This document shows, one piece after another, positions 25,576 through 26,379 of a stretch of 41,539 nucleotides of DNA. Source of the DNA: Nitrospira japonica. Lineage in GTDB: Bacteria; Nitrospirota; Thermodesulfovibrionia; UBA6902. How positions within the stretch are numbered: the stretch's first letter is position 1; every line of letters begins with the position of its first letter. Below the pieces are notes generated by a model. It did no database searches. It saw only the letters and a program-made list of their open reading frames with translations, and was not told where the DNA came from. A program made the translations under genes and the position numbers. The stretch spans positions 1-41,539 of the forward strand of contig DYJL01000027.1 of assembly GCA_020723105.1 (NCBI GenBank), given 5' to 3'.

Positions 25576-26379
25576 ATGCCTAAGGCGGTAGCGATAATTC
25601 CGGCGAGATTCAACTCTACCCGCTTCCCCGGGAAACCCCTTGCTACCCTCAAAGGAAAAAGTATTATCCAGCATGTTTATGAACATGCATCATCGGCAAA
25701 ACTCCTCAGTTCTGTTGTGGTTGCAACAGATGATAAGCGGATATTTGATGCAGTGGTTTCATTTGGCGGCAGGGCTGTTATGACATCAGGCCGTCATGCC
25801 AGCGGCACTGACAGGATTGCAGAGGTGGCTGTCAATACAGATTGTGACTTTGTTGTAAATGTTCAGGGCGATGAACCTTTTATTACTCCGGAAATGGTTG
25901 ATGAGGTGGTTGAACTGCTGTACAATGATGATGAAGTTGCGATAAGCACCCTGGCAAAGAGGACTACTGACTTAAATGAAATATTTTCACCGAATGTTGT
26001 AAAGGTGGTCATGAACGATAAGGGAATTGCAATGTACTTCTCAAGGGCGCCGATACCTTTTTACAGGGATGAATGGAGGACAGAATCAGGAGTAAAGAGT
26101 CAGGAGTTAAGTGGTTTCCAATTCTTAACTCTAAACTCTAAACTCTTAACTCTTTCCTGCTACAAGCACATTGGCATATACGGCTTCCGCAAGGATGCGC
26201 TGTTGCAATTTGTCTCTTTAAAAGAAAGCCGGCTTGAACAGATTGAGAAACTTGAACAACTGCGGGCGCTTGAAGCCGGAATGAAGATTAAGGTCAAAGA
26301 AACTGAATACGATACATTTGGAATTGACACTATAGAGGATTTAAGAAAGGCTGAGGAATGGCAAAATATATCTTTGTGA
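25576..26379 (+). CDS. kdsB: 3-deoxy-manno-octulosonate cytidylyltransferase with an inserted segment
   Basis: KdsB forms CMP-KDO for lipopolysaccharide. Conserved motifs are [53 protein letters not shown], and [15 protein letters not shown]. Length is 267, against about 240-250 for the family. The extra stretch (residues about 170-195) lies between FYRDEW and YKHIGIYG and is encoded by a palindromic heptad-rich tract. The start of the conserved region matches the ATG at 25576. It overlaps pyrG by 22 bases, so translation is likely coupled. Confidence 0.96.
26087..26159. repeat. Palindromic heptad repeat inside kdsB
   Basis: Left-arm words CAGGAGT, AAAGAGT and CAGGAGT run at 7-base spacing; right-arm words AACTCTA, AACTCTA, AACTCTT and AACTCTT do the same. 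CAGGAGTTAAG pairs with CTTAACTC and the outer arms pair with TCTTTCCTG. The tract is read in frame and adds about 26 residues to KdsB. Confidence 0.8.

Follow-up and report, generated by a model that had tools for sequence, protein, structure and literature searches.

Palindromic elements of Rickettsia are stretches of palindromic DNA that lie in frame within genes and belong to sequence families with a consensus. Repeats built from seven-base units are described for other bacteria. In Geobacter metallireducens, the Gmet_H4## element consists of four tandem heptanucleotides and occurs in 49 copies, both intergenic and intragenic and sometimes more than once per gene, and other tandem-repeat sites of that genome are paired on opposite strands (PMC2700814, 2009). 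Repeats of period 7, mostly with four units, are reported for Xanthomonas (GGGAATC) and Nostoc (GGGGA(C/T)T); convergent heptamer pairs number 70 and 75 in two Xanthomonas genomes, and most Xanthomonas repeats occupy corresponding intergenic places in both species while being highly variable in length and sequence (Rehm 2015, PMC4692102). The TAACTGA direct repeats of Beggiatoaceae are heptamer arrays of unknown origin, some of them within ORFs (MacGregor 2015, PMC4679880), and the intrastrand triplex motifs are G/C-rich repeats (Holder 2015, PMC4666352). Arrays of period 7 with about four units have so far been explained case by case, by quadruplexes, regulator sites or polymerase slippage.

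The stretch of DNA analysed here (the window) comprises 41,539 nucleotides of Nitrospira japonica (GCA_020723105.1, contig DYJL01000027.1; genome G000) and carries paired heptad arrays in frame within kdsB. The earlier note on this DNA had likened the insert to the Rickettsia palindromic elements, and the likeness extends to in-frame placement within protein genes (69 of 69 sites open, see below), but no consensus emerged here, and each arm varies independently of the other. Like the Geobacter and Xanthomonas elements, the arrays consist of tandem seven-base units, typically four, since 150 of the 257 unique arrays from all loci pooled measure 28-34 bp and the commonest lengths are 30-32 bp, about four heptads; unlike them, they have no single consensus word per genome or genus. 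The available passages on Gmet_H4## give one consensus, GGGACCG, and a regulatory reading, and orthologous sites, replaced words and reading frame are absent from those passages (PMC2700814). The Xanthomonas repeats are 89-93% intergenic, of one word type and interpreted as quadruplexes (PMC4692102), whereas here the majority of the sampled arrays are intragenic, a word at a given site can be replaced by an unrelated one, and common words such as AAAACTC, AAGAGTT and AAGTCAG have no G-tracts, which also sets them apart from the Nostoc repeats. The Beggiatoaceae repeat differs in being a single word found mostly just 5' of start codons, with its in-ORF copies mostly at protein ends (PMC4679880). 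The class of four-heptad elements is therefore in part already known, as is variation at shared intergenic places, of which the Xanthomonas case is the nearest published counterpart of the word turnover described below. In the open-licence literature on heptameric repeats and Rickettsia elements, judged by titles, abstract openings and the papers cited here, no report was recognised in which orthologous in-frame sites have their words replaced. As far as that literature shows, what is new is that fixed in-frame sites of essential genes exchange unrelated words, one arm at a time.

The kdsB gene (25576..26379, plus strand) is a lipopolysaccharide gene that encodes 3-deoxy-manno-octulosonate cytidylyltransferase as a single open frame of 267 aa, and it has only one match in this genome. 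Its product scores 226.5 bits against TIGR00466 (cut-off 155.2), and comparison of the predicted model with PDB 1h6j gave TM scores of 0.85/0.93. The heptad segment of about 73 bp (26082-26154) is located between FYRDEW and YKHIGIYG and reads, on the plus strand, as a G-rich left arm of 30 bp (26082..26111; AGAATCA GGAGTAA AGAGTCA GGAGTTA followed by AG), an 8-bp centre (26112..26119; TGGTTTCC) and a C-rich right arm of 35 bp (26120..26154) made of five AACTCTT-type heptads with a period-7 scan score of 20.2. Because the words of the left arm alternate, this arm was missed by the period-7 scan, and TRF assigns it a period of 14. Folding of the segment as RNA yielded a hairpin of -31.4 kcal/mol (z -4.7) and folding as DNA one of -13.8 (z -2.9), and in each case none of 200 shuffled sequences was as good. 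The palindromic arrangement of seven-base words inside the open kdsB frame, as first pointed out in the earlier note, is real. In the AlphaFold model (mean pLDDT 83.7), the remainder of the protein outside the insert folds as KdsB, and residues 164-192 form the only segment of at least three residues with pLDDT below 50. The structure check proposed earlier thus came out as expected of a disordered loop, and the insert is predicted to be one. The loop has 32 residues in G000 and 19 in nine array-less relatives (L095-L103), which gives a net gain of about 13 residues; the figure of about 26 extra residues proposed before is correct for the array-coded stretch and too high as a net gain. The sequence of the native loop is not recognisable within G000.

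Three genes of the window had been said to carry the same element, and the second clear coding case is prmC (16458..17366, minus strand; TIGR03534 273 bits, cut-off 199.1), which contains a second in-frame heptad pair. Its G-rich arm of the AGTGACA type (16978..17008, plus strand) was found by the period-7 scan, and its C-rich degenerate partner (about 17019..17053, plus strand; CTTACAG CTTGCAA CCTGCAA TCTGTTA) fell under the scan score and was read by eye. The other two places do not extend the coding cases. At 1635-1670, the start of the next ORF, there is a short AT-rich palindrome with AATTAAC-like words that is too weak to be classed with the heptad arrays, and the array at 38238..38267 (plus strand; period-7 scan) is intergenic. 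The latter lies inside the second copy of an intergenic repeat of about 190 bp with inverted ends, present at 13025-13215 and 38141-38345, whose first copy lacks exactly 14 nt, or two heptads, at the place of the array.

The genome-wide search suggested in the earlier note was performed on 441.5 kb of G000, consisting of the window and twenty 20-kb stretches, three of which were picked for known hits. Arrays numbered 42 at period 7 and, at its multiples 14 and 21, 31 and 7 respectively, compared with at most 4 at each of the other periods from 3 to 20, so that period 7 stands far above the periods that are not its multiples. A first-order Markov copy contained no array, and the kdsB site with its open frame is common to assemblies of several projects; chance or an assembly artefact is therefore an explanation that we can practically set aside, even with draft genomes and with nearly all named relatives being metagenome assemblies. 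One degenerate word pattern matched at 155 places, compared with 26 for the reversed pattern (matches overlap within arrays). In G038, G043 and G045, the pattern GTCACTNGTCACTNGTCACT was outnumbered in matches by its reversed control; the reversed form was taken for a heptad word of those genomes and hence provides no control there. Pattern counts varied strongly between genomes, AACTCT being counted 373 times in G003, 16 times in G004 and 0 times in G010. An array was taken as inside a long ORF if the ORF had at least 150 codons and the array at least 30 codons on each side. In G000 this applied to 37 of 49 sampled arrays, or to 8 of 13 when the three picked stretches were removed; since bacterial genomes are mostly coding, this indicates tolerance by genes and is no sign of preference. 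Array density in G000 is uneven, with 24 in C94:60001-80000 and 4 in 200 kb of C57. The former stretch (L078) has several arrays per cobalamin-type ORF, and C2:60001-80000 (L080) has 11 arrays in 20 kb, three of them well inside a single ORF of 1394 codons.

The kdsB loop was compared across relatives. Within the genus, heptads were present at 7 of the 8 sites read, and the words often differed. Up to the level of order, the words include AAGAGTC/AACTCTT, CAGAAGA/AACTCTC, CAGGAGT, GCAGAGG/AATCCCC, CAGAACA/AACTCCG, CAAGTGA/CTTGCAA and GAGTTAC, among more. G002 and G003 have words in common at this site, G001 of the same genus is without an array, and several genera have the native 19-residue loop with the array absent. 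Heptads of yet other words occupy the loop in records titled as Deltaproteobacteria (L123, L125, L131) and Armatimonadetes (L135). The same KdsB insertion in distant sequences with unrelated DNA had been named beforehand as an observation that would speak against a mobile palindrome, and what was found comes close to it: the same loop holds other heptad words, within the genus and beyond. Arms of other words at a shared site were likewise found in guaA, aroC, murC and thiL, hence, together with kdsB, in five out of five genes followed. These five were chosen out of ten with in-frame elements, the omitted ones being leuS, an mqnE-like gene, an amidotransferase and two cobalamin-type ORFs, and prmC was also left aside; the array survey took in 188 loci, including 36 at which the site was not found, 21 duplicates and 71 without an array. 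Left and right words are unrelated in many species, as in guaA (CAGAAGA/CCGTCAC and AAGATGC/CTCGTCA). In the same gene, the genomes G005 and G008 have the left arm in common and differ in the right one, and both arms are shared by G004 and G006, at a flank identity of 0.92. Some sites have a single arm only. Since the words of the two arms often do not complement each other, the ability to form a hairpin is not conserved. A different motif, CCCCCC..GGGGGG, occurs at the same sites in kdsB (L084, L094, L127), in guaA of G016 (L176), and in aroC of G041 and in a second aroC copy of G007 (L208, L212), sometimes flanked by two heptad arms; it resembles the intrastrand triplex motifs by appearance only, and these are not heptad-based (PMC4666352).

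The array-bearing sites of kdsB, guaA, aroC, murC and thiL were in frame and open in 69 of 69 cases, and stops occurred in 49 of these sites when the frame was shifted by +1 and in 48 when it was shifted by +2. Open frames throughout, despite stops in the other frames, are indirect evidence that the heptad loops are translated, and they bear out the earlier claim that coding sequence tolerates the element. The check took in 158 loci, of which 59 were without an array and 30 were unmatched by the looser anchors (including 12 of 27 loci in guaA and 8 of 27 in murC). It covered 55 of 110 kdsB loci (L031-L060, L084 and L104-L127), the remainder being in large part duplicates of L031-L060 (21 exact) or from other phyla, together with 24 of 27 aroC and 25 of 27 thiL loci after second copies, fragments and paralogue matches were dropped. 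A single thiL site, which carried no array, did not keep the frame.

Units within an arm were 0.911 identical in 48 arrays, whereas words at the same site reached 0.686 between species at the best rotation and flanks 0.761 (101 species pairs, one genome per species); units are thus more alike than same-site words of different species, which indicates that the units change together. For instance, the thiL arm reads GTCAGAA in four species and GGCAGAA in G008, with the same substitution in all four units. Between G000 and G007, the guaA arms are 0.03 identical and the flanks 0.82. The opposite is seen in thiL of G005 and G009, where the first 34 bases are identical and the 300 bp upstream are only 0.74 identical. 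In 61 of 101 pairs the flanks were more similar than the word, and in the other 40 the word was at least as similar as the flanks. Arms from the same site resembled each other only a little more than arms from different sites, with identity of at least 0.8 in 76 of 387 same-site pairs and 165 of 1549 different-site pairs. The 40 pairs and this small excess suggest that part of the arm content is inherited. The tight-anchor expressions used per gene recovered 5 of 10 guaA and 2 of 10 murC sites in the genus. Words were also shared according to genome: in the genus, 17 of 316 same-genome array pairs had a word in common compared with 50 of 2579 between-genome pairs (reached by 3 of 1000 label shuffles), and over all genomes 20 of 467 compared with 110 of 8000 (reached by none of 500). 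This signal of a genome dialect is modest, leans on a few words such as AACTCTT and is not corrected for kinship.

Ordinary replication slippage would offer a local origin for the arrays, in which seven is a favoured slip length, arrays grow and drift in place, and shared words reflect mutational bias. Slippage has already been put forward in print, as reported by Rehm 2015 (PMC4692102). In accordance with it, period 7 is the most frequent one among 80 named kdsB loci from several phyla (47 arrays at period 7, 31 at 14 and at most 7 at any other, one array each at 7 and 14 being a run of N). Like neighbouring units also tend to stand in blocks (AABB 30, compared with ABAB 7 and ABBA 7, with an ascertainment bias that favours AABB), and the two copies of the intergenic repeat differ by 14 nt; blocks and copy difference together make unit-by-unit slippage at least a contributor. 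The counts of perfect runs fall gently at first, from 53 at 19-20 bp to 46 at 21-27 and 41 at 28-34, but only 4 measure 35-41 bp, and the whole set of arrays peaks at four units (34 at 21-27 bp and 43 at 35-41 bp on either side of the peak, with a scan cut-off that works against short arrays). Moreover, a single 7-nt slip would put an essential gene out of frame, whereas all four units are seen to change together with the frame kept, and neither the pairing of G-rich left with C-rich right arms nor the sharing of words by genome fits slippage, which as the whole explanation we consider unlikely. A quadruplex explanation of the preference for four units was ruled out for the frequent words, in which G-tracts are absent: the commonest, AAGAGTT, AAGTCAG, AACACAG and AAAACTC, contain no GGG, and a minority (AAGGGGC, AGGGGGT) do.

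The two arms of a pair enclose a short centre. Among 46 adjacent pairs of arrays, 31 had the G-rich arm on the left and the C-rich arm on the right, none had the reverse order, 7 were like-signed and 8 had one near-neutral arm; orthologous sites are included in these pooled pairs and arrays, which are thus not independent. Purine content at 26 two-arm sites of four genes gave RY in 16, RRY in 1, Rm in 6, mY in 1 and RR in 2, with none beginning with Y. The pooled words number 120, with several in each genome that has more than one array, and they follow a grammar beyond composition (4.28 bits, compared with 3.69 +/- 0.11 in shuffled words) and form a one-step network of 284 links, compared with 162 +/- 11 for letter-shuffled words. 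Head-to-head telomere fusions have the same polarity as these G-left/C-right arms, and the G-strand word forms resemble TTAGGG-like words. Healing of double-strand breaks, in which 3' ends would gain G-rich heptads in the manner of telomeres before being joined, would agree with this polarity, with the independence of the arms and with the shared word grammar. It sits poorly with the many words per genome. A telomerase-like reverse transcriptase with Ku end joining was considered as the machinery, and absences lower the idea, PF00078 being missing from 14 of 23 heptad-rich genomes and Ku (PF02735) being present in only 8 of 47 genomes and absent from G000. We regard break healing as very improbable.

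The convergent polarity also agrees with a mobile palindromic element of the REPIN or Rickettsia-palindrome type, which a Y1 (RAYT-type) transposase would mobilise in trans in the form of a folded strand and which would land repeatedly in the same tolerant loops, as all 31 pairs of clearly opposite skew are convergent and the kdsB element folds as a hairpin. Genes for Y1 transposases (Y1_Tnp, PF01797) were present in 22 of 23 heptad-rich and 11 of 18 heptad-poor genomes, and Y1 and heptad counts were correlated over 47 genomes (Spearman 0.48, with kinship not corrected and with heptad counts taken as overlapping matches of two words from which reversed-pattern matches were not subtracted). However, G028 is heptad-rich and has no Y1 match, and the clustering around the Y1 transposase gene that marks REPIN/RAYT systems was not seen here: 20 sampled Y1 flanks contained 2 arrays in 62.4 kb, and this density of 0.03 per kb is no enrichment over the G000 baseline of 0.02-0.07 per kb (C57, C63 and the window; higher in the picked dense stretches). 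The transposase link, with correlated counts and flanks that are not enriched, is accordingly kept only as a rival. The palindrome as a moving unit, as the earlier note had it, does not hold up against arms that carry unrelated words in many species, are often not complementary, change singly and at some sites stand alone, with no common consensus found, and we rate transposition of a palindrome as rather unlikely.

Transposition, slippage alone and break healing are all weaker than rewriting in place. For the KdsB insert, we hold with about even confidence that it consists of convergent heptad arrays whose position is inherited and whose words were likely overwritten in place by other arrays of the same genome. 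A shared site, other words, separate arms and an open frame are what is observed; from these we infer the copying, and among the genomes compared, one per species, neither a donor tract nor a recent rewrite was seen. An arm would occasionally be rewritten as a unit, copied from another array by ectopic gene conversion or template switching, the copying may be primed by short stretches common to the words, and the rewritten arm would then be kept uniform by copying between neighbouring units. The sites themselves would be old, with a dispensable surface loop lost and arrays gained, and selection would remove every rewrite that breaks the frame. Rewriting from a genome-wide pool accounts for the inherited position, the change of whole arms, their independence, the uniformity of units and the genome dialects. 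At the present divergence, in-place rewriting looks the same as if a tolerant loop had lost its array and later gained a new one, and the CCCCCC..GGGGGG motif at the same sites fits repeated colonisation of such a loop as well. More tentatively, and with clearly less than even confidence, we propose that a bacterial process overwrites four-heptad arrays of about 30 bp arm by arm, from a pool particular to each genome, at vertically inherited sites of which many lie in essential genes, keeping unit number, polarity and frame. If so, the arrays together would form a population whose sequences compete for fixed addresses, with one dialect per genome. The five genes separate the site from the word, in that site, period, usual unit number and polarity persist and the sequence is exchanged, and this weakens explanations tied to one word. 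It raises the question of how an essential gene can have all four units of its array altered together with no frameshift. If rewriting in place is true, the array peptides of KdsB, GuaA, AroC, MurC and ThiL would be products of DNA turnover, for which a sequence-specific protein function is unlikely.

Two other features of the window were recorded. A 6S RNA (Rfam RF00013, 76.8 bits, cut-off 46.4) lies at 1171-1354 on the plus strand, and the ORF overlying it (1173-1568) is probably not a gene. At the contig end (41186-41536), there is a tandem repeat with a 153-bp unit in 2.2 copies, which is probably coding.
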